Below are positions 17,741 to 62,400 of a DNA stretch of 64,000 bases, in pieces. The first letter of the stretch is position 1. Every line of letters begins with the position of its first letter. Made by a program: the position numbers and the translations under genes. The DNA is from Epilithonimonas caeni DSM 17710 (GTDB lineage: Bacteria > Bacteroidota > Bacteroidia > Flavobacteriales > Weeksellaceae), in the NCBI RefSeq assembly GCF_000426465.1, contig NZ_AUFK01000017.1, positions 189,044 through 253,043 of the forward strand. The letters are read 5' to 3'. The notes under the pieces were generated by a model. It worked only from the letters and a program-made list of their open reading frames with translations, was not told where the DNA came from and did not search any database.

Positions 17741-17796
17741 TTATTTTCCAATTTTATTAATATATTTCCCAAAAATATCTCACGACAAAATGTTAA

Positions 17797-23744: not shown

Positions 23745-23816
23745 AAAATAATGGTTATTAATACTTTCTTATTTTTTCTAAAATAGGAAAAGTTAATTGG
23801 ATAAGTAAGAGTTTAT

Positions 23817-24422
23817 TTAAATAATTAAACGAAAGGTCAAATTAATCCTTTCTTTCATTTTTACTGTTGATTTAGCAATTCGATGTTCCCAGTTTTCCTG
23901 TAAATCCCCTTTCATAATGAGTAACGAACCGTGAGGCAATGGCAAACTGTATTTGCTCTGATGATGGTCTTTTTTTCTGAAATCAAAGTTTCTGGTTTGA
24001 CCTAAACTGATTGATGCAATCACAGGTCGTTTTCCATAGCGGCTTTCTTTATCTCTGTGCCATGCCACGGAATCATTATTATCACGATACAGGTTTAATA
24101 AAACACCATTGAACTGATACCCAAATTCTTTTTCTATCCTTTCTTTTAAAGTATAAAGCTCGGGAGTCCAAGGATTAGTTCCTGAAACATTTCCGTCTGA
24201 ATCGTAAGAGCTATCATTTCCTCCATACCAAGCAGTAAGGCGGGGTGTTACAACTGTTTTATCATACATCTTCTGAGTTCGCTGTTCCCAAGGTGTCGTT
24301 TTCAGCAGTATATCTTTCAATTCATCGGCTTCTTTGCTGCTCAGGAAATGTTCCTTGTATTCCAAAAGGTCTTTTGGAAATTTATAAAACTCTTCCGTAT
24401 CAAATAAACTCAGCTGACTCAT
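23817..24422 (-). CDS. alkB: AlkB-family 2-oxoglutarate/Fe(II) dioxygenase (alkylation repair)
   Basis: This 201-residue protein carries the AlkB double-stranded beta-helix signature: NLYRDNNDSVAWHRDKES (iron ligands H and D), SLGQTRNFDFRKK, and the final ENWEHRIAKSTVKMKERINLTFR (third His and the 2-oxoglutarate Arg). The N-terminal PRLTAWYGG is typical of the ALKBH2/3-like branch found in bacteria. It removes 1-methyladenine and 3-methylcytosine lesions oxidatively. It lies 145 bp downstream of the S24 repressor gene on the same strand and may be co-regulated with the translesion polymerases. Confidence 0.93.
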   Translation of the reverse strand: MSQLSLFDTEEFYKFPKDLLEYKEHFLSSKEADELKDILLKTTPWEQRTQKMYDKTVVTPRLTAWYGGNDSSYDSDGNVSGTNPWTPELYTLKERIEKEFGYQFNGVLLNLYRDNNDSVAWHRDKESRYGKRPVIASISLGQTRNFDFRKKDHHQSKYSLPLPHGSLLIMKGDLQENWEHRIAKSTVKMKERINLTFRLII

Positions 24423-46805: not shown

Positions 46806-46907
46806 AAAGCTTTCTCGGGACACAATTTCATTCATATTAAATGGCTTTTAGGTGCCTTGCGGTTAACTAACGACTATCCCCTATCCAAAAGGCACTAAGA
46901 AAGTTTT
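46806..46907 (+). promoter_or_regulatory. Long-range paired structure in the susC leader
   Basis: AAAGCTTTCT (46806-46815) pairs with AGAAAGTTTT (46898-46907), enclosing a second stem GTGCCTT/AAGGCAC (46852-46858/46889-46895). No coding frame of note lies between 46,716 and 47,061. This would be a folded part of the susC 5' leader. The remaining leader (to 47,061) has a further imperfect hairpin at about 46,981-47,026. Confidence 0.4.
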
Positions 46908-47061
46908 GTTTTCAAATACCTGAATCCAGAAGTAATAATAACTAAAAAATGAAATAAAAAATAATCCTTATAAATAAGAAAGCCCTTCCCTATTCAGTTT
47001 GCAGACTTCAGGAAAGAGCTAGGTTTATCAAGGAGTTTAATCAAAAAACCCATACAAAACT

Positions 47062-50000
47062 ATGAAAAAATCCTATTCTAAAATAGGAAGCATTGGTATT
47101 GTCTTTTTGTTAACTGCATTATGCAGTAATGCAAAAGCACAAACCAAGACAGTGACCGGAACAGTTACTGTCGGCGAGAATCAGACACCACTTTCTGGAG
47201 TCAATGTATCTCAGGAAGGCAGTGATCAAGTTACACAGACCAATTCGAAAGGATTTTACATCTTACAAATAAACGGTGAAAATCCCATCATAATTTTCCG
47301 ACATCCTGAGTATGCAGAAAAAAGAATTACCGTAAATGGTAAAGCTGTTATTAATCTTTCATTAGATCAGAAAGTACAGGGCATTGAAGAAGTTGTTGTC
47401 AATGCCGGATATTATAAAGTAAAAGAGAAAGAAAGTACCGGTAGTATTGCAAAAGTTTCAGCGAAGGATATAGAAAATCAGCCTGTGACTAATGTTCTAT
47501 CTAGTGTTCAGGGACGACTTGCGGGTGTTACTATCACTCAAAATTCAGGAGTTCCCGGAGGTGGTTATGATATTCAAATAAGAGGTAGAAACAGTTTAAG
47601 AAACAAGGACAACAGCACAATTGATGGAAATCAGCCACTTTATGTGATCGATGGTGTTCCGATGGGTGGAGAAATGACATCACTCTATTCGACTGTTATT
47701 CTACCCGGAAGAAGTCTTAATCCTCTCAACAGCATCAATCCAAACGACATTGAAAAAATTGAAATTTTAAAAGATGCTGATGCAACAGCAATATATGGCT
47801 CCCGTGGTGCTAATGGTGTTGTTTTGGTAACTACTAAAAGAGGAAAGTCAAAACGACTGAATTTAAATTTTAATACATCCTATGGATTAAGTACAGTGAT
47901 TTCTAATCTCAATTTGATTAATACATCAGAATATTTATCTATGAGAAAAAAAGCATTTGAAAATGATGGAATCAGTACTTATCCTGCAACGGCTTATGAT
48001 ATCAATGGAACTTGGAATCAAGATAGATATACAAACTGGCCGGATAAATTAGTTGGGAACACAGCAGCTTTGTCAAACACACAATTATCATTAAATGGCG
48101 GTGGAGAAACAACCAATTTTTTATTGAGCCTTTCAAATAATGAGCAGACCACTGTTTTTGGGGAAGACTTTAAATACAAAAGCAAAAACATTTCCAGCCA
48201 TATCTCGCATCGATCTGCAGACAATAAATTTCAGATGAATATTGCCAATAGTTTTTCAATTCAGAAAAACAATGTCATTAGAACAGATATTACGAGGCAG
48301 GCGTACAATTTAGTTCCAAATGCACCTGAGCTTTACAATTCTGAAGGTGGATTAAACTGGCAGAATAATACATTTGCCAATCCTGTGGCAGCCTACAATA
48401 GCACCTATACAAATGAAAACAAGCAATTTCTTAATAGTATTACAACACAGTATGAGGTTTATAAAAACTTATTGCTAAAGCTTAATGGTGGATTTAACTA
48501 CCAGACATTTGAAGAACTTTCGTTACAGCCCAATACAATTTATAATCCGGCTTATGCTGCGGGTCAGTCAAGCGCAACTTCGACAGCATCTAAGAATAAT
48601 CAGGACAGATTTTCTTTCATCATTGAACCACAAATTAACTGGAATTACCAATCTGAACATCATAAAATCGATGCTTTGGCGGGAGGAACATTTCAAAGAG
48701 AGACAAACGAACAAGGGTCAATTGTAGGTGTAGGCTTTGAAAGTAATGCTTTTATAACAAATATCGGTGCTGCAAGAACAAAAACAGTTTCAGACCAAAT
48801 CACAAATGAATACAGATACGCTGCATTTTTTGGGAGGCTTAATTATCAATATTTAAATAAATATATAATTAATCTGACTGGCAGACGTGATGGAAGCAGT
48901 CGCTTTGGTCCAAATAAAAAGTTTGCCAATTTTGCAGCAGTTGGAGGAGCTTGGTTATTTAAAAAAGAAAAATTTGCCGAAAATCTAGAATGGTTAAGTT
49001 TTGGAAAGCTTCGCGGAAGTTATGGTACTGCAGGTAGTGACAACATTGGAGACTATCAATATTTAGATACTTATACTGTCTCATCATCATATATCTATAA
49101 TTCAGTTACAGGATTGATTCCGTCAAGACTCTATAATGGTAACTATAGTTGGGAAAAAACTAAAAAGCTAGAAGTTGCTTTAGAACTTGGGCTCTTCAAA
49201 GACCATATTAATATTACGACAGCTTGGTATAGAAATCTTTCTTCAAATCAATTGGTGGGCTACCAGCTGCCTTCAATCACTGGCTTTACAAGTGTATTGG
49301 CAAATCTTGATGCTACGGTCGAAAACAAAGGATGGGAATTTGAGTTGGCAGCTCAGCCACTAAAAACAGGGTCTCTTAAATGGGATACTAATTTCAACAT
49401 TAGTTTTCCAACAAACAAATTAGTTTCATTTCCGGGACTGGAAGGTTCAACGTATGCCAATCAATTTATCATTGGGCAATCTACTTCAATTATCAAATTG
49501 TATCAACTTGAAGGTATCGATCCTAAAACAGGAAAATACAGTTTTACTGATTTCAATGGAGATGGAAAGATATCTTCACCTGAAGATAACAAAGTTGCTC
49601 AGGACATAAGTGTAAAGTTCTTCGGTGGGTGGTCGAACAGTTTCAGATATAAAAATTGGGACGTTTCATTTTTGTTTCAGTTCGTTAAGCAAAAAAACAG
49701 AAATTACAACAGTATTATAACTGTTCCTGGCAGTATGAATAATCAGCCAGTCGAAGTTTTAGATGTCTGGTCAACGGACAACCCTACTGGTACATATATG
49801 CCATATACTTCCGGAGTAAACACGCTTCACACATTTTTTCAAAACAGTACAGCATCAGTGTCGGACGCATCATTTATCAGATTAAAAAATGTACAATTGG
49901 GATATCAGATTCCATTAAAAAACAGCGTCTTCAGAAATGTCAAAATATACATTCAAGGACAAAATCTTCTCACGGTAACCAAATATTTTGGTGTTGATCC

Positions 50001-50070
50001 TGAGTTTTTAGCACTGGGCTATCTGCCACCTCTGAAAACATACTCTTTTGGGTTACAGTTCAATCTTTAA
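47062..50070 (+). CDS. SusC/RagA-family TonB-linked outer-membrane transporter
   Basis: This 1002-residue protein has a signal peptide (TALCSNAKAQ), an N-terminal carboxypeptidase-regulatory-like domain (VTGTVTVGENQTPLSGVNVSQEG), a TonB box/plug region (ATAIYGSRGANGVVLVTTKRG) and a 22-strand barrel ending in FGLQFNL. It imports a large ligand across the outer membrane with energy from TonB. Its partner SusD follows at once. The downstream gene is a secreted S9 peptidase rather than a glycoside hydrolase, which points to a peptide rather than glycan ligand. A structured RNA and a long leader precede it. Confidence 0.95.
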   Translation: MKKSYSKIGSIGIVFLLTALCSNAKAQTKTVTGTVTVGENQTPLSGVNVSQEGSDQVTQTNSKGFYILQINGENPIIIFRHPEYAEKRITVNGKAVINLSLDQKVQGIEEVVVNAGYYKVKEKESTGSIAKVSAKDIENQPVTNVLSSVQGRLAGVTITQNSGVPGGGYDIQIRGRNSLRNKDNSTIDGNQPLYVIDGVPMGGEMTSLYSTVILPGRSLNPLNSINPNDIEKIEILKDADATAIYGSRGANGVVLVTTKRGKSKRLNLNFNTSYGLSTVISNLNLINTSEYLSMRKKAFENDGISTYPATAYDINGTWNQDRYTNWPDKLVGNTAALSNTQLSLNGGGETTNFLLSLSNNEQTTVFGEDFKYKSKNISSHISHRSADNKFQMNIANSFSIQKNNVIRTDITRQAYNLVPNAPELYNSEGGLNWQNNTFANPVAAYNSTYTNENKQFLNSITTQYEVYKNLLLKLNGGFNYQTFEELSLQPNTIYNPAYAAGQSSATSTASKNNQDRFSFIIEPQINWNYQSEHHKIDALAGGTFQRETNEQGSIVGVGFESNAFITNIGAARTKTVSDQITNEYRYAAFFGRLNYQYLNKYIINLTGRRDGSSRFGPNKKFANFAAVGGAWLFKKEKFAENLEWLSFGKLRGSYGTAGSDNIGDYQYLDTYTVSSSYIYNSVTGLIPSRLYNGNYSWEKTKKLEVALELGLFKDHINITTAWYRNLSSNQLVGYQLPSITGFTSVLANLDATVENKGWEFELAAQPLKTGSLKWDTNFNISFPTNKLVSFPGLEGSTYANQFIIGQSTSIIKLYQLEGIDPKTGKYSFTDFNGDGKISSPEDNKVAQDISVKFFGGWSNSFRYKNWDVSFLFQFVKQKNRNYNSIITVPGSMNNQPVEVLDVWSTDNPTGTYMPYTSGVNTLHTFFQNSTASVSDASFIRLKNVQLGYQIPLKNSVFRNVKIYIQGQNLLTVTKYFGVDPEFLALGYLPPLKTYSFGLQFNL

Positions 50071-50080
50071 AAAATTTGAA

Positions 50081-51454
50081 ATGAAAACAATTACAAACAT
50101 TACTATATTATTATTCTCACTATTACTACTCAATCTGATTTCTTGTGAAGAGATGCTGGAAGTTGATGTACCGGAAAATCAAATTGATAAAAACAATGTT
50201 TTTCAGGACACTCAAACAGCAAATTCCGCATTATCGGCATTATATTCGAGTTTACGAGATAATTCTCTACTGGCAGGTGATAAGATGGGATTATTTTTGA
50301 GCAATTATACAGATGATCTCACTTGTTATGCAACTACCGCAACAAATGGAATCTATGAAATTTCACAAAATCAACTCATTTCCAGCAATGCTGCAGTTTA
50401 TTCACTGTGGTCAAATACATATCAACAAATCTATTTCTCCAATTCTATCTTAGAAGGTCTTGAAAAATCATCAGGAATTTCAAACACAGACAAAAGAAGA
50501 ATGAAAGGTGAAGCATTACTGATACGCTGTATTTTATATTTCTATTTACAGCAAATATATGGAGATATTCCTTATTTAACTACAACTGATTACACTGCTA
50601 ACAACACCTCATCAAAATTGAGTTCTGATGATGTTCTTGTTCGACTTGAAAACGATTTGAACGAATGTTATATATTATTAGCAGACGAATACAGTAACTC
50701 CGAAAGAATTTTTGTCAATCGTAAAGTTGCAGAACTGATGATGGCAAAGGTATATTTTGCAGAGCAGAGACCAGCCGATGCGGAAGCTAAATTAAAATCA
50801 ATAGCTCAAAGTTCTCTTTATACTTTCGAAACTGACATTGCTAAAGTCTTTCAAAAGTCAGGAAAACATATTTTGTGGCAATTAAAACCTAAAAATTCAG
50901 GAGATGCAACAAAAGAGGCAAGTTTATATTATTTCACAGGTGCAGCACCTTCGAGCTACGCACTATCGACATCTCTTATGTCCTCCTTTGCATCATCGGA
51001 TTTCAGAAAATCGAACTGGATGGCAGTAATTACTGTGGGCGCAAACACTTGGTATAGAGCCGATAAATATAAAAATCGCTCAAATAATACCACAGAGTAC
51101 TCCATTGTTTTCAGGCTTGAAGAAGTTTACCTACTATTATCCGAAAGCTTGGCAAAACAAAACAAACTCAATGAAGCACTGCTATATTTAAATGCTACAA
51201 GACAACGTGCTGGACTTTCGGCGGTAACTTCAGGCATTTCACAGTCTGATTTAATTACTGAAATCGCAAGTGAGAACCGTAGAGAATTCTTTACAGAGAT
51301 GGGGCATCGTTTCTTTGATCTCAAAAGGAATAACAATTTAAATTCTCTTATTTCCTCAAAACCTAATTGGCAGACTAATCATCAACTGTGGCCAATTCCT
51401 CAAAAAGATCTTGAACTAAATTCAAATTTAAATCCCCAAAATCCAGGTTACTAA
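50081..51454 (+). CDS. SusD/RagB-family surface lipoprotein
   Basis: This protein of 457 residues from the chosen start has a lipoprotein signal (LLLLNLISCEEML). SusD features follow: a TPR-like helical core (YFYLQQIYGDIPYLTTTDYT, KVAELMMAKVYFAEQR) and the C-terminal SusD signature RREFFTEMGHRFFDLKRNN. SusD caps the SusC barrel and binds the ligand. The ATG at 50,081 is chosen because an earlier in-frame ATG lies inside susC and would add residues before the signal peptide. The stop codon overlaps the next ATG by one base (TAATG). Confidence 0.93.
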   Translation: MKTITNITILLFSLLLLNLISCEEMLEVDVPENQIDKNNVFQDTQTANSALSALYSSLRDNSLLAGDKMGLFLSNYTDDLTCYATTATNGIYEISQNQLISSNAAVYSLWSNTYQQIYFSNSILEGLEKSSGISNTDKRRMKGEALLIRCILYFYLQQIYGDIPYLTTTDYTANNTSSKLSSDDVLVRLENDLNECYILLADEYSNSERIFVNRKVAELMMAKVYFAEQRPADAEAKLKSIAQSSLYTFETDIAKVFQKSGKHILWQLKPKNSGDATKEASLYYFTGAAPSSYALSTSLMSSFASSDFRKSNWMAVITVGANTWYRADKYKNRSNNTTEYSIVFRLEEVYLLLSESLAKQNKLNEALLYLNATRQRAGLSAVTSGISQSDLITEIASENRREFFTEMGHRFFDLKRNNNLNSLISSKPNWQTNHQLWPIPQKDLELNSNLNPQNPGY

Positions 51455-53946
51455 TGAGATCATTTAAAAATATAATAATTTTACTGTTACTTGTAGGGAT
51501 TTCTTTTTGTCAAGGTCAAACGTTGAGAGGCACATTAGAAAAAAAAATGGCTCAGCAATATCGAATAAAAATTCTTGCGATGTCTCCAAAGGGAAACTGG
51601 GTTATAGCAGGAAAACATTATGATATTAACAAAGATACTATTGAAATTTTTTCAACAAAGAATAAAATTCAAAAACCTCATCTGTTAACGAAAACCTTAG
51701 ATATTCCAATTTTTTTACAAGAAGAAGCTGTGGTAGCATTGGCAAAAGATAAAGCTGTCTTAGTTAGTCTGAATGATAGAAGACAGAAGGTTTTTGACAA
51801 TATTAAAAGAGTTTTTGCGTCTTCAGACACAGGAACTTTTGCATTACTAAACACTGCCGATAAATTGTCTGTCTATAATAACAAAGGGGCATCATACTAC
51901 GAAATAGATAGTGTAGTCAATATTACGAAAGATAATGTAAGTAAAATTTTTGTCGTAAGAAAGGGTGAAAATAAATACGAAATCTACGACACTTCTTCCC
52001 AAAATAAAAAAAAGATCTACGAGAGCCCTGTGCTTATCAAGAGAATTGAAATAAGTGATTCAAAGAAAACACTTTATATAATTGAACAAAACAGTACTGA
52101 TAAAACGGAAAGTTTAGTTTTATTAGATATCAAATCTGGCAATATCTCAAAACCAATTTTACAAGATATAGATACTGGAGATTACATTGTAGTTAGTGAA
52201 ATGAATGAAGAAGGAAAGTATTTTGTAAATGGCCAAACGAAGATACCAAAAAACAAAAATGTCGAAATATGGTATGGAAATGATGGTGATTTAAGCAAGC
52301 ATGACACTGGTTTTGATCCAATTGACAAATATTGGATAATTACAAACAATAATCATGTAAGCGCAATTGATAATAAAGATTCGAAAAAGATTTTTTTATC
52401 TGGCAGTGATAAATATCTTTTCGCTTTTAAAAGAGGAAAACTTCAAAATTATACAGTAGATAATCAAAATATTGATTTACAGATTTTAGATACTCAGAAT
52501 AATACAGCCAAACCCTTTGATATTGTAAAAAGTGCATATTTCACTCTATCCAAAGATGGAGAATTTAGTATTTACAGAGACTTGCAGGATAAATGGGTGT
52601 TATGTAATCTTTCTACGATGAAAAAAGGATATATTCAAGATCACAGTCTGCAAAATCCTGTTTTTAGTAAAGACGCGTCATTAATTTACTTTGATTCTCA
52701 AAAAGGTATTTTCGTTTATAATATTCAGAAGGATAGACTGATCAAAATTAGCGAAAATCTAAGTAAAAAAGTTAAAATTTTGAATAAAGAGAGTCTACCA
52801 TTAATTGGGAGCTATTTCAAGATTTACAGATCGTACCTAAAGAATGATAATTCAGTTTTAATAAAAGTCAGAGATGACGAAGAAAACAAAACGTCATATT
52901 ATACCATTGTAAATAAAGATTTAAAATCAATAATAAAATCCTCAGAAAATTATATTAGAGATTTCTACTACAACAGAAACGCAAATTTTTTTGCTTATAC
53001 ATTAGAAAATTACAACAAACCGATGTCTTTATATTACGTTGATGATCATAAAAAAGAACCAATAATTCTTTTAACCAATGAAAATCGAGATGCTGCAGTA
53101 AAGAATCTTAAAATTGAAATAATAAATTATATTAATTCGGATTATCAGAAGTTGAAGGGTATTTTATATTACCCAACTAACTTTGAGCCTAAAAAAAAAT
53201 ATCCTATGATTGTAAGAATTTATCAAATTCAGAATGATTCGGCAAATCAATATGATATTATAGGCTATAATAATCCTGCTTCTTTTGATTTGAGAACTTT
53301 ACTTGACCAAGGCTATTTCGTTTATTTACCCGATATTGTATTTGGTCCAAAAGGAACAGGTCTTTCAGCATTAGACTGCGTCAATAAAGCATTGGATACA
53401 ATTCAGAACAGACCGTATATTGATCAGTCGAAAATCGGATTAACAGGGCATTCCCATGGGGGATATGAGACAAACTTTATTGCTACACATTCAAACCGTT
53501 TTGCAGCGTATTTATCTGGTGCTGGTAATAGTGATATTGTACGTTCCTATTTTTCTTACAATTATAATTTCCACAGCCCATTTTACTGGCAATATGAAAA
53601 TGGACAATATGAATTGAAATTTCCTTTCAGTGAAAACAAAAAATTGTACTTTGACAACAACCCCATTTATAATGTTGAGAAAGTGAATGCGCCCATTCTT
53701 TTATGGGCTGGTAAAAAAGACGAAAACATAAAATGGGATCAGGTCATGGAATTTTATATTGGGTTAAAAAGGAATAATAAAGATGTTATAGCTCTGTTTT
53801 ATCCAAATCAGGGGCATAATCCAAGTTTTAATTCAGAGGATAGAAAAGATCTTTATTATCGAACATTAGAATGGTGGGATTATTTTTTAAAAGATAAAAC
53901 AAACATAGATTGGATTAACAAACAAATGAAAAAGGATGCTTTATAG
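51454..53946 (+). CDS. Secreted S9-family (prolyl-oligopeptidase-like) peptidase
   Basis: This 830-residue protein has a signal peptide (LLVGISFCQGQ) and a long N-terminal beta-propeller-like region (about 30-560). The C-terminal alpha/beta-hydrolase domain has the nucleophile Ser667 in LTGHSHGGYETNF, an Asp in WAGKKDENIKWD and a His in YPNQGHNPSF. S9 peptidases cleave short peptides, often after Pro. It is translationally coupled to susD by a one-base overlap, so peptide capture by SusCD and hydrolysis in the periplasm or at the surface are probably linked. Confidence 0.9.
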   Translation: MRSFKNIIILLLLVGISFCQGQTLRGTLEKKMAQQYRIKILAMSPKGNWVIAGKHYDINKDTIEIFSTKNKIQKPHLLTKTLDIPIFLQEEAVVALAKDKAVLVSLNDRRQKVFDNIKRVFASSDTGTFALLNTADKLSVYNNKGASYYEIDSVVNITKDNVSKIFVVRKGENKYEIYDTSSQNKKKIYESPVLIKRIEISDSKKTLYIIEQNSTDKTESLVLLDIKSGNISKPILQDIDTGDYIVVSEMNEEGKYFVNGQTKIPKNKNVEIWYGNDGDLSKHDTGFDPIDKYWIITNNNHVSAIDNKDSKKIFLSGSDKYLFAFKRGKLQNYTVDNQNIDLQILDTQNNTAKPFDIVKSAYFTLSKDGEFSIYRDLQDKWVLCNLSTMKKGYIQDHSLQNPVFSKDASLIYFDSQKGIFVYNIQKDRLIKISENLSKKVKILNKESLPLIGSYFKIYRSYLKNDNSVLIKVRDDEENKTSYYTIVNKDLKSIIKSSENYIRDFYYNRNANFFAYTLENYNKPMSLYYVDDHKKEPIILLTNENRDAAVKNLKIEIINYINSDYQKLKGILYYPTNFEPKKKYPMIVRIYQIQNDSANQYDIIGYNNPASFDLRTLLDQGYFVYLPDIVFGPKGTGLSALDCVNKALDTIQNRPYIDQSKIGLTGHSHGGYETNFIATHSNRFAAYLSGAGNSDIVRSYFSYNYNFHSPFYWQYENGQYELKFPFSENKKLYFDNNPIYNVEKVNAPILLWAGKKDENIKWDQVMEFYIGLKRNNKDVIALFYPNQGHNPSFNSEDRKDLYYRTLEWWDYFLKDKTNIDWINKQMKKDAL

Positions 53947-53956
53947 CATCCCTTTT

Positions 53957-54226
53957 TTACTGCAGTCTGAAAAGTTCCTCTCCGCACATTGTCGGGTTGT
54001 CCGAAATTTTCTCGTGCAAAGACGAACTGCTGTCGCCCGACCAAACACATGGGGCTGTGCCCACTGTGTTACACTGTTGTTGTGCGTTTAGACATTCGCC
54101 AGTAACGGCATCAATTCTGTAAGCGTCAACAATTGCTTTTGCTGAATTGCTTTTTGCAGCACTAGTTGCAAATGCTGCGCCTGTGCCAAGTAATACTGTG
54201 ACTACAGGAATCATTAATTTTTTCAT
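53957..54226 (-). CDS. Small secreted four-Cys peptide (DUF6520)
   Basis: This 89-residue precursor has a signal peptide (LLGTGAAFATSAAKS) and a mature part with YRIDAVTGECLNAQQQCNTVGTAPCVWSG and a final Cys in PTMCGEEL, four cysteines in all. This matches DUF6520, small Bacteroidota peptides often encoded beside MauE/DoxX membrane proteins. The function is unknown; disulfide-bonded bacteriocin-like or signalling peptides have been suggested by context. It is transcribed after the MauE/DoxX gene (28 bp apart) and converges on the S9 peptidase gene. Confidence 0.82.
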   Translation of the reverse strand: MKKLMIPVVTVLLGTGAAFATSAAKSNSAKAIVDAYRIDAVTGECLNAQQQCNTVGTAPCVWSGDSSSSLHEKISDNPTMCGEELFRLQ

Positions 54227-54254
54227 ATTAAAGAAATTTGAATTATTGCCTACT

Positions 54255-55766
54255 CTATTTTAGGTTTTCGGCATTCCCCTTTTCATATAAATTAAGAATC
54301 AGTCTAGTAAACTTGTATCTTTTCAATTCTTTGTCAATTAAAACAAAAAGATACATGTCGGTTGCATACATCTGTGTTAGCGCTTTATCATCCTTTTTAG
54401 GAATATAAAAGCTTCCTACATATTCCTGTCGGTCAATCCTGTAGATATCAATGATTGAATTTTTCTTCCATGCTTTCTTAGACTCATACTTGCCAATAAG
54501 CTTTGATTCCACAAAAAGGAGGTTTTGATTAGTTGTAGGATTTTGATTGTTTTTTAAACTTGGAACATTCATTTTATGTCGACCGTCTGGAATTTTAACC
54601 ACATTAAATCTAGCTCGGCTTATGGTGTCAATTGTTTTTAAGCGAGATTTCAATTCAAGATCCTCATCCATGATCATATATTCATTTCTGTAATTATATA
54701 TGTATATAAGATTTTTAAAATTTTGGTTGAGCAACAATTTTCCGTCACTGTCAAATACTCCGTCAATTTGTTTTTGAAGAATATCTGGATTCAATACAAC
54801 TTTTGGATTTCGATTTAAATCAAGGCTACCCAAAGTGTATTGCTGTGTACTTTTACTCTGCGTTCTTAGTGCAAATCTAGCCGAATCTAAAACGGATAAT
54901 TGAGTAAAGTATGCGTTCTGATAACTTATTGTTTCTGCATATTGGTCACCAATTTTACCTCTGTAAATTATTGGGACACTTCCATCGTAAAGAAAATAAT
55001 CGTTTTTAAAGGTCTGAAGCCATAGATTTTTAAAGGAATAGTCTTTCTCATCCAGCTCTATCCTTTGTTGGCTTAAATTTGATAAATCATAATTAATTTC
55101 AGAAAATAATAATGGAGCTGTTATATTTCCAAGATATATTTTTTTACTATCTGAGCCTGCAATATAGTATGAATCCAGCTTTAAATCTATTGATTTATCT
55201 TCTAGTACTGGATGTATTAGAAATCTTCTAACAAAATTATTCTCTTTTTTTATAATGTATTCTGAAGAATAAAATAGATAAACAACAAGAGAAGTACTCG
55301 CGACAAAGACTACAAAAATTTTCACAAAATAGATGATGAATTTTTGTCTATTAATAACCTCAACTAGAATTACGGAAATAAAAGAAAGTAAAATACATCC
55401 AAGATTAAATAATAGATGTTCTGTCCAATCCATTTTCTCAAGTATCCCGCCGCAAGAACAGGGAACAAAGTCGCTAAAATTTAGGATAAGATAAATATAG
55501 ATTGTAAAGGCTATCATAATTCCCATAGAGCTATAAAGCCCAATTAATCGAAATTTGGGAACTATAAGAGTAACTACAATAAGAAGCTCAACAATTATTG
55601 TTGCATAAGAAATAAATCCAGCATAAGCACTTAAAAGTGGTGATTGTGCGATCTGAACCTGGAAATTTCCAAAATCCATTATTTTGCTTGCGCTAGCGTA
55701 GCAGAATAAAAGAATAAAAAAACAGGCCGTTATTAGCGGCACTTGAAGGAAGACTGATTTTTTCAT
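54255..55766 (-). CDS. MauE/DoxX-type redox-associated membrane protein with C-terminal extracytoplasmic domain
   Basis: This 503-residue protein has an N-terminal part (1 to about 170) with four to five membrane helices and the redox-like cysteine motif FVPCSCGGILEKMDW, as in MauE/DoxX/VKOR-like proteins that support disulfide formation. The remaining 330 residues form a soluble, beta-rich extracytoplasmic domain, probably a propeller. It lies just upstream of the four-Cys DUF6520 peptide gene, so a role in forming the disulfides of that peptide is plausible. The substrate link is inferred from context. Confidence 0.83.
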   Translation of the reverse strand: MKKSVFLQVPLITACFFILLFCYASASKIMDFGNFQVQIAQSPLLSAYAGFISYATIIVELLIVVTLIVPKFRLIGLYSSMGIMIAFTIYIYLILNFSDFVPCSCGGILEKMDWTEHLLFNLGCILLSFISVILVEVINRQKFIIYFVKIFVVFVASTSLVVYLFYSSEYIIKKENNFVRRFLIHPVLEDKSIDLKLDSYYIAGSDSKKIYLGNITAPLLFSEINYDLSNLSQQRIELDEKDYSFKNLWLQTFKNDYFLYDGSVPIIYRGKIGDQYAETISYQNAYFTQLSVLDSARFALRTQSKSTQQYTLGSLDLNRNPKVVLNPDILQKQIDGVFDSDGKLLLNQNFKNLIYIYNYRNEYMIMDEDLELKSRLKTIDTISRARFNVVKIPDGRHKMNVPSLKNNQNPTTNQNLLFVESKLIGKYESKKAWKKNSIIDIYRIDRQEYVGSFYIPKKDDKALTQMYATDMYLFVLIDKELKRYKFTRLILNLYEKGNAENLK

Positions 55767-55842
55767 GGCTAAAAAATTTATTAAAAAACTTTAAAATCAA
55801 AATCTGCCCTTTCATTATTATCTTCTTCGTCAATTTTTGAAA

Positions 55843-55905
55843 GATTTCCCTATACCCGATCTAACGTCGTTGGCTGGATATTATATTTTTGAGGTATAGG
55901 GAATC
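55843..55905. repeat. Long inverted repeat between two small minus-strand genes
   Basis: GATTTCCCTATACC (55843-55856) pairs with GGTATAGGGAATC (55893-55905), a 13-14-bp stem with one mismatch or bulge and a 36-nt loop. It lies between the 66-residue lipoprotein gene and the MauE/DoxX gene. It could terminate or attenuate transcription or bind a regulator. Confidence 0.5.
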
Positions 55906-55920
55906 TTTATATCATTTCAT

Positions 55921-56121
55921 TTAGTGTTTCCAATCTTGACCATCCTTTACAGGGGGATCTTTTTCTAATTCAATTTTCATTCTAGTTGAATCAGATGTTT
56001 TATTACTTTCCTTTGCAACTCTAGATAGTGCAAAATCATTATCTACTTGCTCATCAACTTGTCTGCAACTTTGCGCACATAAACCCACAATAAGAATTAA
56101 AAATGGGATAACTTTTTTCAT
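55921..56121 (-). CDS. Small lipoprotein-like secreted protein (hypothetical)
   Basis: A 66-residue protein with a signal peptide and lipobox-like end (LILIVGLCAQSCRQVDEQ), then a short charged mature part ending VKDGQDWKH. Similar short proteins accompany DUF6520/MauE loci in related genomes, as far as I recall. It is the first minus-strand gene next to the tandem palindromes and may be part of the same peptide system. Confidence 0.6.
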   Translation of the reverse strand: MKKVIPFLILIVGLCAQSCRQVDEQVDNDFALSRVAKESNKTSDSTRMKIELEKDPPVKDGQDWKH

Positions 56122-56218
56122 AATAGTAAAATTTATTAAGGATTATCCCGGCCGGTTTTTCTCAGAATTCTTGGAGTCAAAGGTATTGTCGAAAAGACCG
56201 TCCAAACAAGCATATGTG

Positions 56219-56262
56219 GGTGTGCTTTACAAAGCACGACGTCGTGTTTTATAAAGCACGAC
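56219..56262. promoter_or_regulatory. Two adjacent 22-bp palindromic sites, candidate tandem operators
   Basis: Two 22-bp units lie head to tail (56219-56240 and 56241-56262). Unit 1 contains GTGCTTT-AC-AAAGCAC; unit 2 has arms GTCGTG and CACGAC. Both end in AAAGCACGAC. They sit between the divergent 66-residue lipoprotein gene and the AraC-type regulator, a natural place for a dimeric regulator to control both directions. Confidence 0.62.
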
Positions 56263-56398
56263 AACAAAAAACAATGAAACCGCTTCATTATCAATTGTTT
56301 TTAATAATAATTAAATATCTTAATAGAATATTGGGAAAAGCCCTGTTTTATGGAGATTTTACATAAATTTGGCGGTTCTTAATTGAAGCCTACTAACC

Positions 56399-58114
56399 AT
56401 GCTTAAAGGATTTTCATTCATTTTGATATTATTCCCCTTTTTTCTGCTGTTAAATGCGCAGAAGATGAGCGAATATGAGATTATCCGAAAAAATTATGAG
56501 AATCTTCCTAAAAATGATAAAAGAGCAATTCCTTATGTAAAGACTTATATTCAAAAATCGAAAAATGAAAATGATTTTGAACATTTAACCCAAGGATATC
56601 GGGATGCCGTTTTCTTTACTAAAAATGAAAAGCAAAAATTAGTATATTCCGATAGTATGATCTATGCCGCTTTAAAATCACGAGATAAAGATTTGATAGG
56701 TTTAGCTTATTTGGGAAAAGGGATTATCTATTACTTTAACTATAAAAAATTTGATCCGGCTTTAGATGAATATTTAAAAGCTTATAACTATTTAAAAAAT
56801 ACTAAAGACGAGTATTTGAAATATAAGGTCGTCTATCATATGGAAGTCGTCAAAAGCTACCTAGGCTATTATTCAGAATCTAAAGAAAATTTCGAAGAAT
56901 GCATTAAATTTTTTAATAATGAATCAGTTAAACAACTTCATCCAAATGAAGTTTTCAATAATAAAAGGGGATATTTTAACTCTCTTCACCAGTTAATAAT
57001 CTGTCAGAGAAATCTAAAAAATTTTGCTGCTGCTGATAGTTTAATAAATGTTGGGCTAAAAGAAATTGAGGGGATTGATGAATTTTCTTTGGAAAAGAGT
57101 TATTTTTTAAAGTGCAAAGGCATTTCAGCATATAACCGTCAAAATTATAAGCATGCAATCGATATCTTAAATAAATCTTTACCAAAAATATTGAAGGTAG
57201 ATGATTTTGCGACTGCATCATTAATTTACTCTTACTTAGGAAAGAGCTACTATCATTCTGATAAGGAAAAAGCACTCCATTATTTTGAGATGGTAGATTC
57301 AATTTTCGTTCATAAAAATTTTGTTTTACCGGAGACACGTGATAGCTACGAAATTTTAATAAACCATTTTAATAACCTGAACAACACAAAGAAAGAGCTG
57401 TACTACACTAAACAGCTCTTATCAGTTGACAGCTTATTAGGAAAAGAGTTTTACTATTTGACCTCAAGAATTCACAAAGAATACGACACGAAGCGATTGT
57501 TAGATAACAAAGAAGCTTTAGAGAAGAGAAATCTTCTCACTTCCTTAATGGTAATATTTTTTATATGTCTTTCGCTGCTTTTTATCACACTATACATTTT
57601 TAAATATAGGAAGAATAAGAAGATCATGCTGAATTACAGGATACTGCAGATAAAGCTTGACAATCGTCAGCTTGAAAAAATGCTACATCAACATAGTCCC
57701 GATACCATTTACGAGGATGAGAAGACATCGATAATTAGTAAGGAGATTTACCAAGATTTACTATTAAAAATAAAATCATTTGAGGATAGACAAGAATATA
57801 CTCAAATAGGATTAACATTAAATCAGTTGGCGGCTCAATTCAATACTAATACAACATATTTATCAACTTTTATCAACGAATCAAAAGGCGTTAATTTTAA
57901 AAATTACCTAAACAATCTTAGAATTGATTACATTACCAATCTAATGAATACTGATAAAAATTACTTGAAATACACAATTGAAGCATTAGCTGAAAAATGC
58001 GGTATAGCATCCCGTCAGAATTTTTCAGATCTTTTTTATGAAATTAATGGGATGCGTCCAACAGATTTTATCAAAAAAAAGAAAGAAGAGCAAAAAAATA
58101 ATAACGGTAAATAG
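56399..58114 (+). CDS. TPR-containing, membrane-anchored AraC-family regulator
   Basis: This 571-residue protein has a signal/anchor at the N-terminus, about 330 residues of TPR-like helical repeats outside the membrane, one membrane helix (about 380-402, LLTSLMVIFFICLSLLFITLYIF) and a cytoplasmic C-terminal AraC HTH domain (LNQLAAQFNTNTTYLSTFIN, EALAEKCGIASRQNFSDLFYEINGMRPTDFIKK). This one-protein sensor-regulator type is common in Flavobacteriia. It probably senses a periplasmic signal and controls the neighbouring SusCD/peptide genes. A TAAATTTG box lies at 56364-56371. Confidence 0.88.
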   Translation: MLKGFSFILILFPFFLLLNAQKMSEYEIIRKNYENLPKNDKRAIPYVKTYIQKSKNENDFEHLTQGYRDAVFFTKNEKQKLVYSDSMIYAALKSRDKDLIGLAYLGKGIIYYFNYKKFDPALDEYLKAYNYLKNTKDEYLKYKVVYHMEVVKSYLGYYSESKENFEECIKFFNNESVKQLHPNEVFNNKRGYFNSLHQLIICQRNLKNFAAADSLINVGLKEIEGIDEFSLEKSYFLKCKGISAYNRQNYKHAIDILNKSLPKILKVDDFATASLIYSYLGKSYYHSDKEKALHYFEMVDSIFVHKNFVLPETRDSYEILINHFNNLNNTKKELYYTKQLLSVDSLLGKEFYYLTSRIHKEYDTKRLLDNKEALEKRNLLTSLMVIFFICLSLLFITLYIFKYRKNKKIMLNYRILQIKLDNRQLEKMLHQHSPDTIYEDEKTSIISKEIYQDLLLKIKSFEDRQEYTQIGLTLNQLAAQFNTNTTYLSTFINESKGVNFKNYLNNLRIDYITNLMNTDKNYLKYTIEALAEKCGIASRQNFSDLFYEINGMRPTDFIKKKKEEQKNNNGK

Positions 58115-58256: not shown

Positions 58257-58631
58257 ATGAAAGATTTAAAAACCTCAGGCAGATCAAAGACTGCACGAAT
58301 TACTTTAAGGCTACATGACGAAGTAAAAGAAAAATGGCTGAATCACTGTAATAAATACAACCTTCATCTTTCCGATTATATCATTAGCGGCGTCGAAGGA
58401 AAGCTACTTGATAATGACAGGAAAGAAATCATGAATTTCATCGAAAATCAGGTTAATTTATTCTCTAAAATTGAGAATAATATCAATCAGATTGCAAAAC
58501 ATATCAACACCAACAAGCACTTACCCACTACCCTTTTATCTGATTATAATTCAAAGCTTGAAATTCTCAACAGTCTGAAAATTGAGCAAAACAGAATAAT
58601 CAAAAAAATCTATATTGAACTTGCAAAATGA
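58257..58631 (+). CDS. Mobilization accessory protein (ribbon-helix-helix MobB/MobC-like)
   Basis: A protein of 124 residues from the chosen ATG (an upstream in-frame ATG at 58,209 would add 16 atypical residues). The N-terminal part KTARITLRLHDEVKEKWLNHCNKYNLHLSDYIIS is typical of RHH relaxosome proteins that bind oriT. The C-terminal half is a coiled-coil-like helix (NFIENQVNLFSKIENNINQIAKHIN). Its stop overlaps the relaxase start (ATGA), so the two are coupled. Confidence 0.86.
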   Translation: MKDLKTSGRSKTARITLRLHDEVKEKWLNHCNKYNLHLSDYIISGVEGKLLDNDRKEIMNFIENQVNLFSKIENNINQIAKHINTNKHLPTTLLSDYNSKLEILNSLKIEQNRIIKKIYIELAK

Positions 58632-60067
58632 TTGTTAAAATATTAAACAAATCATCCAGTGAGTTCAATGGTGTGATTTATAATGACAAGAAAATTGAAA
58701 AAGGAAAGGGAGAACTTTTATCAATTAAAAATTTCCCGGCTCATCTTAATCACTCTTCGGGAGCTCCAGACATAAAAAACTATCTGAAAGCAGTTTCCAA
58801 AAATAATTCAAGAATAAAAAATCCGCAGTTTCACGCTACAATATCCGCAAAAGGACGCGAATATTCTAAGGAACAATTGGCGCTTACAGCAGATAAATTC
58901 ATGGATAAAATGGGCTATGGTGAACAACCGTACATTGTTGTTTTTCATAATGATACTGCCAACAACCACATTCATATTGTAAGTACAAGGGTTAATAAAG
59001 ACAGCTCAAAGCGTATTGAGAGAGATTTCGAAAAATATAAAAGTCAAACTGCTTTACAGGAAACAATTAAAGAGTTGTACGGTACTGACGTACATCAAAA
59101 TTTAGAAAAATTGATTGATTATAATTATAGTACGTTACATCAGTTTAAGACACTGCTGGAACTTAATGGATACGGCTATTATGAAAAAAATGATAAGTTA
59201 AATATTACAAAAAACGGCGCTTTTATCAAAGTTTTAAATGTCAATGATTTAAATTTTTCAAAAAAAAGTTTTGACGAGAAAAGAAAAAAACAGATATTTG
59301 CTCTATTCAAAAAATACAAAGAGGTATTTTCCAACTCGGTTTTCAGAGTATCGGATAAAAACCATGCCTCCTACCAATCAGAGCTTCAATACCATCTGAA
59401 GAAAAAATTTGGGATTGATGTTGTTCTTTCATTCAAAGATGATAAACAGCCTTTCGGCTATTCCATCATCGACCACAAAACCAATACGATTTACAAAGGC
59501 AGTGATATAATGAAAATGAGTGACCTATTCATTATCAGCTCCCAAGTATTAGACAAAAAGATCTTTGACATTCTGGCCAATTCAAATTTGACAATCGAAA
59601 CGAAGAACGTTTTTAAAAAGCATTTGGAACAAGAGTACAAATGCGAAATCCAGGATTATATGCTTTTTTTGAAACAATCGAAAAAGACAAATTATAATAT
59701 CTGGAAAGACACACGAAATTCAACAATAGATCACATCCTAAACTTAAGGAAAGTAAGTAATAATTCGCAGGATAAAATAAAGATCGTCAGTTTCTCAAAT
59801 GAGGCATTCGTCATTAATAAGATTGACAATGTTGTCTTTACCGTAAAAGAATTGGTCGGAGATTACTATTACAACCTTTATTTATCTCAATTACTAAATC
59901 CTCAAAATCCAGGACACCAGTCTATTGTCAATGGCGTGCAAGCTGCAGAAGCATCAAGTTTAGAAGAAATGTTAAAACGCACTTCCCTATTTGATATTTC
60001 AGCAGCTTCTCCGCCATCAAGCGAAGAACTAGAAAATAGAAGAAGAAAAAAGAAAAAAAAGAGATGA
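58628..60067 (+). CDS. mobB: Relaxase/mobilization nuclease (MOBP-like)
   Basis: This 479-residue relaxase shows motif II-like QFHATIS and motif III FHNDTANNHIHIVSTRVN, the H-x-H metal site, and an earlier LNHSSGAPDIKNYLKAV region. It nicks oriT and pilots the DNA strand during conjugation. Residues 200-479 are the extended C-terminal part of the Bacteroidetes type, ending in a strongly basic tail (ENRRRKKKKKR) that may bind DNA. The start and stop both overlap neighbouring genes by 4 nt. The gene symbol is tentative, following Bacteroidetes usage. Confidence 0.88.
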   Translation: MIVKILNKSSSEFNGVIYNDKKIEKGKGELLSIKNFPAHLNHSSGAPDIKNYLKAVSKNNSRIKNPQFHATISAKGREYSKEQLALTADKFMDKMGYGEQPYIVVFHNDTANNHIHIVSTRVNKDSSKRIERDFEKYKSQTALQETIKELYGTDVHQNLEKLIDYNYSTLHQFKTLLELNGYGYYEKNDKLNITKNGAFIKVLNVNDLNFSKKSFDEKRKKQIFALFKKYKEVFSNSVFRVSDKNHASYQSELQYHLKKKFGIDVVLSFKDDKQPFGYSIIDHKTNTIYKGSDIMKMSDLFIISSQVLDKKIFDILANSNLTIETKNVFKKHLEQEYKCEIQDYMLFLKQSKKTNYNIWKDTRNSTIDHILNLRKVSNNSQDKIKIVSFSNEAFVINKIDNVVFTVKELVGDYYYNLYLSQLLNPQNPGHQSIVNGVQAAEASSLEEMLKRTSLFDISAASPPSSEELENRRRKKKKKR

Positions 60068-60699
60068 TTATTACGTTTGCAAATCAGAAGGGCGGAGTTG
60101 GCAAGACCACTTTAGCCATTGCATTTGCCAACTATCTTTCTATGTTTACCGATAAAAAGGTAAATGTCATCGACTTTGATTTTCAGCGTTCATTTTACAG
60201 GCAATGGTCAGAAGACAAAGAATTAAAAGCAGATTATCTTTATGAAGTAGAGAAAATTTCGGAAGAAAATATTCATCTCACGCAGAATGAAAAAGTTTTA
60301 ATGCAGTTAAAGGAAAGTCAGGAGGTTATTCTTTTTGATACCGCCGGAAATATTCAGAATAATTACACGCAGGTATTACAATACAGTGATGCCATAATAA
60401 TTCCTTATGGATACTCCAGTGTTACAATGATGTCTACAGTACTGTTTCTCAATCTTCTTAAGCTTATCAAAGTCAAGGCAAAAATATATTTCATCAGAAA
60501 TAATATGCGCAAAGACGACAGCTACGAATTGAAACCTGTAATGGATGCTGAATTCAATACGATAGGGAAAGTAATTGGCGGATCAGTTCTAACCAGAAAA
60601 TGTATGCTTAGCATCAACACAAAAGGACTGACATATGAACAAAAGTTAGCTGTCAAAGAAACATTCGATGAATTAATTTATCATCTATGGGAATTTTAG
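60064..60699 (+). CDS. traA: ParA-type ATPase of the conjugation operon (TraA)
   Basis: This 211-residue P-loop ATPase of the ParA/MinD family has the deviant Walker A FANQKGGVGKTTLAIA near residue 6 and the Walker B-like EVILFDTAGN. In Bacteroides conjugative transposons the first tra gene, TraA, is a ParA-like protein thought to help partition or dock DNA. The ATGA overlap with the relaxase and a 13-bp overlap with the next gene show tight coupling. Confidence 0.9.
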   Translation: MIITFANQKGGVGKTTLAIAFANYLSMFTDKKVNVIDFDFQRSFYRQWSEDKELKADYLYEVEKISEENIHLTQNEKVLMQLKESQEVILFDTAGNIQNNYTQVLQYSDAIIIPYGYSSVTMMSTVLFLNLLKLIKVKAKIYFIRNNMRKDDSYELKPVMDAEFNTIGKVIGGSVLTRKCMLSINTKGLTYEQKLAVKETFDELIYHLWEF

Positions 60700-61755: not shown

Positions 61756-62091
61756 ATGAAAAATAATATTACAAGCATTAATAAACACCATAAAATTAAA
61801 AAAGCGCTGTTCTCCGCAATCTTGGTATTATGCACAAATTTACTTTTTGCTCAGACAGGAGGCGCCGGAGCTATATCTTCGGCAACATCGGATATCGAAG
61901 AGTACGTTGAGCCAGTCTCAAACTTAGTTCAAATGATAGGTGCGATCGTAGGCATTGTCGGAGGTGTCCGAATTTACAACAAATGGAACAATGGTGACCA
62001 AGACGTCAATAAAGAACTGATTGGCTGGGGAGGTGCCTGTATCTTCCTGCTTCTCGTTCCCACAGTAATTCAGGCATTTTTTGGAATATAA
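61756..62091 (+). CDS. traE: TraE family conjugal pilin-like protein (DUF4134)
   Basis: This 111-residue protein has a signal-like N-terminus (LVLCTNLLFAQTGGAGA), then two membrane helices (VSNLVQMIGAIVGIVGGVRIY and WGGACIFLLLVPTVIQAFFGI) joined by KWNNGDQDVNKELIG. This is the DUF4134/TraE pattern of Bacteroidetes conjugation systems, thought equivalent to VirB2 pilin. It starts a new transcript after the terminator and lies 3 bp before traF. Confidence 0.93.
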   Translation: MKNNITSINKHHKIKKALFSAILVLCTNLLFAQTGGAGAISSATSDIEEYVEPVSNLVQMIGAIVGIVGGVRIYNKWNNGDQDVNKELIGWGGACIFLLLVPTVIQAFFGI

Positions 62092-62094
62092 GAA

Positions 62095-62400
62095 ATGGAA
62101 GAAAAGAGTTTCTTTCTATACAAGGGGCTAAAGAAGCCCCTTGTGTTTAAAGGTCTGAAAGGAAAGTATATCTATTATGCCGGTGGTTCATTTGCCGGCA
62201 CAATGGTTTTAGGCATCATTCTAAGCAAAGTTATAGGATTCTTTATAGGGATAGTTCTTGCTTTAGGTATTGGTGCAGGATTGATTTGGAATGTCTTCAG
62301 ATTACAGAAAACCAAAGGTCTTTTTAACAAAACGCTTAACAAAAATGAGATTTTTATGATTCCTGTAAAAATAAAACTGAAGCAGAAGTACAAACGTTAG
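62095..62400 (+). CDS. traF: TraF family conjugal transfer membrane protein (DUF4133)
   Basis: This 101-residue protein has the DUF4133 opening FLYKGLKKPLVFKGLKGKYIYYAGG, two adjacent membrane helices (about 28-70) and a basic C-terminal end. It corresponds to TraF/VirB3-type components that associate with the VirB4 ATPase. The gene sits between traE and traG in the canonical order. Confidence 0.93.
   Translation: MEEKSFFLYKGLKKPLVFKGLKGKYIYYAGGSFAGTMVLGIILSKVIGFFIGIVLALGIGAGLIWNVFRLQKTKGLFNKTLNKNEIFMIPVKIKLKQKYKR

Follow-up and report, generated by a model that had tools for sequence, protein, structure and literature searches.

Background

Two kinds of described system come closest to a block of seven genes that we analysed in Epilithonimonas caeni DSM 17710, in a stretch of 64,000 nucleotides (the window, which occupies positions 2269163-2333162 of the searched genome, a single contig of 5.6 Mb). 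The block lies in an integrative conjugative element (ICE); such elements spread resistance and other traits in Bacteroidota, and their triggers are known for few of them. One relative is the peptide control of pCF10, pLS20 and ICEBs1 (RapI-PhrI; RRNPP), for which the relevant passages of PMC6540685 describe an element-encoded peptide, its import and a TPR regulator, on a conjugative element. The other is the lasso isopeptidase cluster (astexin, AtxE2), which the pertinent parts of PMC9266682 describe as a ribosomal peptide, a TonB-dependent transporter, FecI/FecR-type genes and a prolyl oligopeptidase-type propeller-hydrolase that opens the peptide, a combination similar to that of our locus; in those parts the clusters are described as mostly without antimicrobial activity and of unknown function.

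The block encodes a SusC-SusD pair (SusCD), an S9-family peptidase, a DUF6520 peptide with four cysteines, a MauE domain fused to a beta-propeller, a small lipoprotein and a TPR-AraC regulator. An initial annotation of the window had named this set, including the one-base overlap of the S9 gene and the convergent MauE/DUF6520 pair, and had proposed that it makes, oxidises, senses and takes up a disulfide-bonded peptide, with SusCD and S9 acting on this peptide or on that of a competitor. The open reading frame (ORF) list and the Pfam and NCBIfam profiles confirmed all seven genes with their coordinates, strands and families, and the view that the parts form one system held up; the annotation missed the ICE setting, action on a competitor's peptide finds no support in these results, and TPR-AraC, which it called a sensor, is not obviously the receptor specific for the peptide. 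New here are that setting and the exchange of a five-gene set as a unit.

Conservation of the gene block among relatives

We found 69 DUF6520 matches and 60 long MauE genes in 60 Chryseobacterium-type genomes, where a long MauE has at least 100 bits and a frame of at least 368 amino acids (15 short ones of at least 100 bits were held separate, and the recorded MauE matches extend to E ~4e-9). Neighbourhoods were read up to 20 kb around each long MauE gene, and SusC, SusD and S9 were each present at 60/60, so that the association of DUF6520/MauE with SusCD-S9, on which the initial annotation had staked its proposal, extends to other genomes. The S9 gene lies on the strand opposite to MauE in 60/60 loci. 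DUF6520 was recognised in 56/60 loci, each time within 3 kb of MauE and on the same strand (56/56), and conversely 66 of the 69 DUF6520 matches have a MauE of at least 100 bits within 3 kb, in line with the earlier claim that peptide and MauE belong together. An AraC regulator of one kind or another accompanies 59/60 loci, the exception (L078) being near a contig end, and the small lipoprotein 38/60. In the source genome, which has 12 MauE matches, the five long MauE genes pair one to one with the five DUF6520 matches (one of them below the Pfam cut-off). The gene block is real and strongly conserved.

Association with integrative conjugative elements

Proximity to ICE genes was scored with RteC and TraN (DUF4138), for which 98 of 109 and 84 of 89 matches, respectively, were used after the exclusion of weak or partial ones. 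RteC or TraN lies within 50 kb of 57/60 long MauE genes, and the other three are on contigs with neither; RteC lies within 10 kb of 38/60, and TraN within 5 kb of nine. In contrast, a control core MauE family, with one member per genome (60 matches of ~61-71 bits, in frames mostly of 370-404 amino acids, 184 in G038), has RteC or TraN within 10 kb at 0/60 and within 50 kb at 2/60. This difference, together with the constancy of SusC-SusD-S9, rules out chance neighbours. Counted in reverse, a long MauE was found no more than 80 kb away from 52 of the 84 TraN modules.

Three arrangements recur. In arrangement A, RteC comes after TPR-AraC on the strand that they share (median gap 46 bp), and a coupling protein, relaxase and ParA often lie beyond it. 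In arrangement B, TraJ-K-M-N, a short AraC, MauE and DUF6520 lie on one strand, an order seen in the nine loci with TraN, and an ECF sigma factor and FecR precede SusC. Arrangement C, found in the window and also in C. artocarpi (L113), places TPR-AraC immediately ahead of mobC, relaxase, parA and tra genes. The element in the window has a relaxase, TraE/F/G/N-type genes and a coupling protein (PF03432, DUF4134, DUF4133, VirB4, DUF4138, YWFCY/TraG); the interval 47062-58114 that the initial annotation had marked out has its genes in place, and the unit adjoins mob-tra genes beyond 58114. The block thus recurs in Bacteroidota ICEs, where it repeatedly occupies the same kinds of site, next to regulators and transfer genes of the element.

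A further, short MauE (~150-180 amino acids, 74-78 bits) stands apart from the type B module at a distance of 34-40 kb, probably within one and the same ICE (G000:C1:4904450-4904830, with similar places in G010, G025, G032, G042, G043 and G052).

Exchange of the cassette between ICE backbones

To describe how the block evolves, we compared 66 distinct loci of type A, among which data were available for 1711 pairs (the SusC value is that of the whole protein). RteC and TPR-AraC agree to at least 90% in 30 pairs, and among these S9 agrees to at most 40% in 19 and to at least 70% in 11, with none between. No measured SusC, SusD, S9, peptide or MauE propeller reaches 70% in the 19 swapped pairs, and no measured cassette part falls below 55% in the 11 matched ones. 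The 30 pairs form eight backbone clusters, five of which contain a swap. The reverse case, a like cassette on unlike backbones, is seen in L060/L075 (SusC 94%, peptide 97%, S9 58%, MauE 65%, RteC 48%). These results show that SusC, SusD, S9, the peptide and the MauE propeller are exchanged as a unit between near-identical ICE backbones, and that the AraC regulators stay.

Pairwise distances separate the same two groups. In type A, the distances of SusC, SusD, S9, DUF6520 and MauE correlate with one another at 0.77-0.94 [Mantel values for 33-38 loci per comparison, with the caveat for our interpretation that these loci are related to one another]. TPR-AraC correlates with RteC at 0.79, the backbone group with the cassette group at only 0.23-0.42, and the lipoprotein with TPR-AraC at 0.90, with RteC at 0.69 and with the cassette at 0.35-0.52. 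Given MauE, DUF6520 retains partial correlations with SusC (0.47), SusD (0.40) and S9 (0.43), and none with TPR-AraC (-0.07) or RteC (-0.08), though TPR-AraC maps nearer than SusC. In type B (31 distinct loci, 16-31 per comparison) the five cassette parts correlate at 0.86-0.96, ECF/FecR with AraC/TraN/TraM at 0.68-0.86 although they stand on opposite sides of the cassette, and the cassette with ECF/FecR at 0.32-0.45. Apart from S9 (mean identity 0.30), no part varies more than the peptide (0.36). That the parts co-vary and are exchanged together speaks against independent genes that merely face each other here.

The breakpoints were followed in four swapped pairs. On the MauE side, a nucleotide similarity of 92-94% stops ~140-370 bases into the ORF in 4/4 pairs; on the SusC side, 83-87% similarity covers the first 100-730 bases of the gene in 3/4, and in the fourth (L013/L069) similarity is found only upstream of SusC. 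Weak similar pieces (71-80%) lie between the two breakpoints. In a sliding comparison along the proteins, the first 120 residues of SusC go with the backbone (0.55-0.63 in A, 0.63-0.81 in B) and those after ~180 with the peptide, S9 and SusD; the switch is at 121-180, the most conserved stretch. The type A peptide correlates with SusC after residue 180 at 0.53-0.76, depending on the segment, but with the first 120 residues at 0.16-0.18. In MauE, the initial 40 residues tend to go with the backbone (plainly in A; in B with both), and the propeller goes with the peptide. In the swapped pairs with data, the SusC N-terminus is 89-95% identical in 13/15. Because the crossovers lie inside MauE and SusC, promoters and N-termini mostly stay with the regulators, and the parts that likely touch the ligand move together, although the placement of the crossovers may in part be just where homology permits recombination.

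Distribution beyond the genus

A search with the long MauE alignment matched 22 of 395 genomes of the class at 1e-20, the source genome included. Among 20 neighbourhoods (one of them, L044, from the own genus), SusC-SusD is convergent with MauE in 20/20 (in L036 with its propeller part), and RteC, a relaxase or a coupling protein is present in 10 of the 19 outside the own genus. In these distant families MauE and the propeller are separate ORFs in L034 and L035, and MauE stands alone in L037-L043 and L045. The distant MauE loci adjoin a small exported-looking peptide with two cysteines, found by eye; L034 keeps four. In L035 (9249-11274) the two-cysteine peptide ORF lies between the separate MauE and propeller genes, an order in keeping with a propeller that partners the peptide. 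The place of S9 is taken by a redoxin in L040 and L042, by a weak redoxin match in L045 and by a redoxin plus an S8 subtilase in L035; in L037 a redoxin lies on the far side of SusC, and no redoxin- or subtilase-type gene was seen in the S9 slot of L038, L039, L041 and L043. Such replacements in some distant relatives are as expected if this slot serves to open a disulfide-bonded peptide.

Further named relatives number at least 514, and the best 80 of them (L090-L169), which lean to close ones and were sought partly by the CSCGG motif of MauE, include Chryseobacterium, Pedobacter, Sphingobacterium, Chitinophaga, Draconibacterium, Empedobacter, Flavobacterium and others. SusC is present in 72 of these 80, SusD in 74, S9 in 76 and DUF6520 in 70, several loci being cut by contig ends, and at least one of RteC, coupling protein, relaxase, TraN and TraM in 53. 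Among the matches listed, a Pedobacter MauE is 56% identical to that of the window, almost as close as the best Chryseobacterium matches (58-59%), as expected of horizontal spread. Spread on plasmids was also considered, but the window MauE had no tblastn match in 72,556 plasmid records.

Conserved residues and structural models

The ICE encodes a DUF6520 peptide with a signal-like N-terminus, and its export is predicted from the sequence. Its cysteines are C45, C52, C60 and C81, and the initial description as a four-cysteine peptide applies to the family at large: C52 and C60 are kept in 103/103 distinct peptides, and C45 and C81 in 102/103. The sole exception, L021 (9918-10199), has lost C45 and C81 together, which suggests the disulfide pairs C45-C81 and C52-C60. 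The L021 ICE also has its coupling protein in pieces. A structure search with the peptide model [predicted local distance difference test (pLDDT) 72.6; 78-87 in blocks after residue 30] gave no match below E 5.

CSCGG is present in 120/120 distinct MauE proteins, of which the part unbiased by the motif search is the 60 genus loci. The MauE model (pLDDT 81.9) has five long membrane-type helices followed by the propeller, with CSCGG between the third and fourth helix, and the conserved motif is suggestive of a disulfide-forming activity. Among solved structures the propeller best matches the DUF4221 protein 3s9j, one propeller of many, with modest TM-scores (0.39/0.51; E 1.3e-8). The S9 catalytic triad is kept, with S667 and D756 in 114/114 distinct proteins and H788 in 113 (one gap), and AtxE2 is among the solved relatives of the window S9 (E 2.4e-6). 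RagA, a peptide importer, is the second-best solved relative of the window SusC.

Regulators and leader sequences

FecR is present in all 13 loci that lack TPR-AraC (12 of these have the short AraC, and the other is L078) and in none of the 41 with TPR-AraC alone. TPR-AraC as a version-specific receptor of the peptide is disfavoured by its lack of co-variation with the peptide once MauE is accounted for; since it co-varies instead with RteC and the lipoprotein, we regard it as a regulator that belongs to the backbone. In another copy of the locus within the source genome (L006:12555-14386) TPR-AraC appears as two ORFs of 115 and 416 amino acids, of which only the first matched the profile; intact relatives exist.

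Six loci have both AraC kinds, and their ICEs seem to hold a second cassette. In L016, L052, L053, L066, L070 and L085 a second cassette with FecR (often also ECF) and SusC lies beyond TPR-AraC, and that of L016 also has SusD, a TlpA-like protein, two DUF6520-like peptides and a short MauE.

The 12-mer AGAACCTCACCA occurs in 21/169 loci (for example at L009:2744-2755 and L009:12385-12396). The 139 classified loci hold 34 matches (~0.33 expected by chance), 19 before SusC and 15 before TPR-AraC in the opposite sense; 13 loci carry it at both sites, and the TPR-AraC copy lies ~12 nucleotides before the start codon. It could be an operator, or an RNA-pairing (antisense) site between the SusC and TPR-AraC leaders. 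We treat it only as a lead, because the loci that bear it are related, some being the same locus fetched twice, and because the general test was negative: the longest word shared within each locus by the SusC leader and the AraC-MauE interval, taken over 82 loci, was not significant (10.5 vs 10.4), which speaks against a common operator in all loci. The window lacks this 12-mer but has the same hairpin frame, and a similar frame occurs in some other ICEs. The SusC leader RNA folds no better than shuffles (z -1.05, -0.41, 0.15), and an Rfam search gave one match at chance level.

Gene content of the window

The coordinates of the block and its surroundings are collected in Table 1. The SusD ORF is listed from a TTG at 50048, and the ATG at 50081 is its most likely start; the base shared by SusD and S9 is 51454, and the stop codons of the convergent S9 and DUF6520 genes are 10 bases apart. 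The small lipoprotein had no match in Pfam or NCBIfam, and the TPR match of the TPR-AraC protein is weak (E 0.013). The row of tra genes runs past the window to TraN (DUF4138) and the coupling protein (YWFCY/TraG) within the following 20 kb.

Table 1. Features of the block and of the adjoining transfer genes, in window coordinates
Feature	Position	Strand	Evidence and remarks
Hairpin GTGCCTT (46852-46858) ... AAGGCAC (46889-46895), then T-rich stretch	46845..46914	+	~210 nucleotides upstream of SusC
SusC/RagA TonB-linked outer membrane transporter	47062..50070	+	TIGR04056, 686.4 bits (cut-off 368)
SusD/RagB lipoprotein	50081..51454	+	PF14322 and PF07980, both above cut-off
S9-family peptidase, signal-like N-terminus	51454..53946	+	PF00326, 81.9 bits
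DUF6520 peptide precursor, putative signal-like N-terminus, mature form ~65 amino acids	53957..54226	-	PF20130, 31.7 bits (cut-off 25.4)
MauE domain fused to beta-propeller, 503 amino acids	54255..55766	-	PF07291, 97.9 bits (cut-off 27), residues 10-132; CSCGG at 103-107
Small lipoprotein, C-terminal DPPxKDGxDW-like motif	55921..56121	-	lipobox read from sequence
TPR-AraC regulator, one membrane helix (read from sequence)	56399..58114	+	AraC HTH PF12833, 34.3 bits (cut-off 33.6)
MobC/NikA-like mobilisation protein	58257..58631	+	below Pfam cut-offs; ORF listed from GTG 58209
Relaxase	58628..60067	+	PF03432
ParA-type ATPase, among transfer genes	60064..60699	+	
TraE-like	61756..62091	+	DUF4134
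TraF-like	62095..62400	+	DUF4133
VirB4/TraG-like	62413..63552	+	PF03135

Elsewhere in the window, positions 11201-15565 encode an RND pump and an outer-membrane efflux domain in one protein of 1454 amino acids (ACR_tran + OEP), and positions 16469-24422 hold a group of proteins of 423, 1625 and 357 amino acids, which we guess may be a defence island.

Possible functions

We tentatively favour, with somewhat less than even confidence, an element-typed peptide signal linked to ICE transfer, in which a carrier's own peptide is made, oxidised, re-imported and cleaved; we rank this reading first because the cassette recurs at sites next to RteC, mob and tra. MauE, its CSCGG loop probably facing the periplasm, would put the C45-C81 and C52-C60 disulfides into the exported DUF6520 peptide, its propeller would hold the peptide, and the peptide would leave the cell by an unspecified route. 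Cells with a matching cassette would import it through SusC-SusD, and S9 would cut it in the periplasm. The uptake or its products would inform the backbone regulators (TPR-AraC, or ECF/FecR with the short AraC), whose targets would be the promoters of the cassette and the RteC, mob and tra genes next to it, so that the ICE could gauge the number of neighbours with the same version and adjust excision or transfer. A more demanding form, which we hold to be possible but doubtful, is a pherotype-like identity locus, whose folded disulfide peptide would be recognised, imported and destroyed only by carriers of the same version, would type the elements and would set the timing of transfer.

Several observations weigh against a transfer-linked signal. 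A third or more of the TraN modules (32/84) have no long MauE within 80 kb, so that the cassette is dispensable for transfer as such, and the ICE of the window has no RteC nearby (the nearest is at 721 kb, vs 38/60 loci within 10 kb). Neither TPR-AraC nor FecR follows the peptide, a specific link from receptor to regulator is missing, and a Pfam scan of a single class B SusC showed no domain of the STN signalling type. Nor do the two regulator types exclude each other completely, since 6/60 loci have both AraC kinds, five of them with FecR. The separation in type B is weaker, the cassette correlating with AraC/TraN/TraM at 0.50-0.68. Of the 19 swapped pairs, 14 come from one backbone cluster (seven loci, three cassette versions), and in two (L013/L069 and L065/L083; 47-48%) the SusC N-terminus has changed as well; moreover, exchange as a unit defines a unit of transfer and is not proof of physical contact. 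Copies that share a genome differ no more than would be expected (DUF6520 0.370 vs 0.356, P 0.78), so that a rule that they must differ was not seen, which weighs against strong self-exclusion. Profile annotation showed no outer-membrane exporter in the block, and the peptide may accordingly stay in the periplasm.

Some of the same facts could serve quite different functions. Matched receptor-carrier sets diversify to escape piracy, as in pyoverdine, and metallophore-like scavenging, in which the peptide would bind metal outside through its four cysteines, SusCD would re-import it and S9 would cut it to free the metal, agrees with the TonB-dependent-type uptake, the peptidase and the ECF/FecR genes of class B, with the RND pump ~31 kb upstream of the block, which may lie outside the ICE, with the likening of the lasso isopeptidase clusters, similar in architecture, to siderophore systems in the parts of PMC9266682 cited above, and with the metal efflux genes of ICEEa1 in the section of PMC5458099 on that element. 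We consider it decidedly unlikely, as the kept CSCGG in MauE points to redox work on cysteines, the paired loss of C45 and C81 fits a disulfide, and a place beside RteC, mob and tra is not expected of nutrient cargo. The last point applies also to nutritional cargo in the ordinary sense, with SusCD-S9 feeding on environmental peptides and MauE and DUF6520 as accessories, for example a periplasmic plug or chaperone of SusC. The rank of RagA among the solved relatives of SusC, the commonness of S9 peptidases and the TraN modules that do without the cassette would suit such a role, but the peptide and MauE are almost as constant as SusCD, and the peptide tracks SusC after residue 180 and not its first 120 residues, which a periplasmic chaperone of the N-terminus would be expected to track, and we think this role improbable.

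Joint exchange of a peptide with its receptor and peptidase is a pattern that also occurs in toxin-immunity sets. A bacteriocin with self-protection, or an exclusion system, would harm or block relatives through their SusCD, carriers would survive by uptake and cleavage, and resistance would select new versions; the high variability of the peptide and S9 is in keeping with this. However, the profiles used, which leave other ORFs unclassified, show neither an exporter nor a small immunity protein as a recurrent member of the block, the cassette follows the Tra proteins less than its own members, and co-resident versions are no more different than random, so that we rate this explanation as unlikely. 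Phage-driven diversification of SusC as a surface receptor, with its neighbours swept along, would give just such a crossover in a conserved plug ahead of a variable barrel; it creates no need for S9, the peptide and the MauE propeller to change too, yet they do in 19/19 swapped pairs, which makes it very improbable.

In a pherotype-like identity locus, the version would be replaced as a whole, with crossovers near the plug of SusC and the membrane domain of MauE. With the cassette beside regulators of excision and transfer, and in discrete exchangeable versions, one can test whether the peptide tells ICEs when to move. The swapped loci are natural chimeras for mapping the specificity of SusCD, and DUF6520 and the propeller-fused MauE proteins gain a defined setting.

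Comparison with known systems

To our knowledge, no peptide census system of conjugation has been described before in the phylum, and none anywhere with a SusCD receptor, so that an identity locus of the pherotype-like kind would be the first on both counts. The MauE/MauD system of methylamine dehydrogenase likewise has a MauE membrane domain and a small cysteine-rich exported partner; unlike there, a propeller is fused to MauE here and the partner is a peptide of ~65 amino acids, and no MauD was seen in the S9 version of the block, with no profile search aimed at it. NVEALT peptides of Bacteroides occur with six-bladed propeller proteins, a likeness that lies in the small cysteine peptide beside a propeller protein; MauE and propeller are split into separate ORFs in some of our loci too (L034, L035). 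In the open-access literature we found no paper on NVEALT or on DUF6520, and none that describes the module among those on Bacteroidota ICEs and conjugation, subscription papers being outside the scope and papers being judged largely from listings. The words SusC, SusD, TonB, AraC, peptidase and RteC are all absent from the main texts of PMC8694125 and PMC12561888, and the section of PMC5458099 on ICEEa1 does not mention the cassette.

The genes that surround the cassette (RteC, relaxase, coupling protein and Tra) resemble those of CTnDOT-type ICEs. Pheromone-controlled conjugation is Gram-positive and uses short peptides and an oligopeptide permease, whereas here there are a four-cysteine peptide, SusCD and S9; nor is the regulator an RRNPP protein, since it has an AraC HTH_18 with a weak TPR part and does not co-vary with the peptide. 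Unlike lasso clusters, the block has a cysteine precursor with a signal-like N-terminus, MauE, a SusCD pair and not a single transporter, and a location in ICEs. No lasso synthetase ORF lies between SusC and TPR-AraC in the window (no profile search was made elsewhere), and the window S9 scores 73.8 bits against the lasso isopeptidase profile NF033523, whose cut-off is 400. In our assessment the locus would thus be a member of neither group, its nearest known architecture being that of the lasso isopeptidase cluster and its nearest logic the peptide control of pCF10, pLS20 and ICEBs1.

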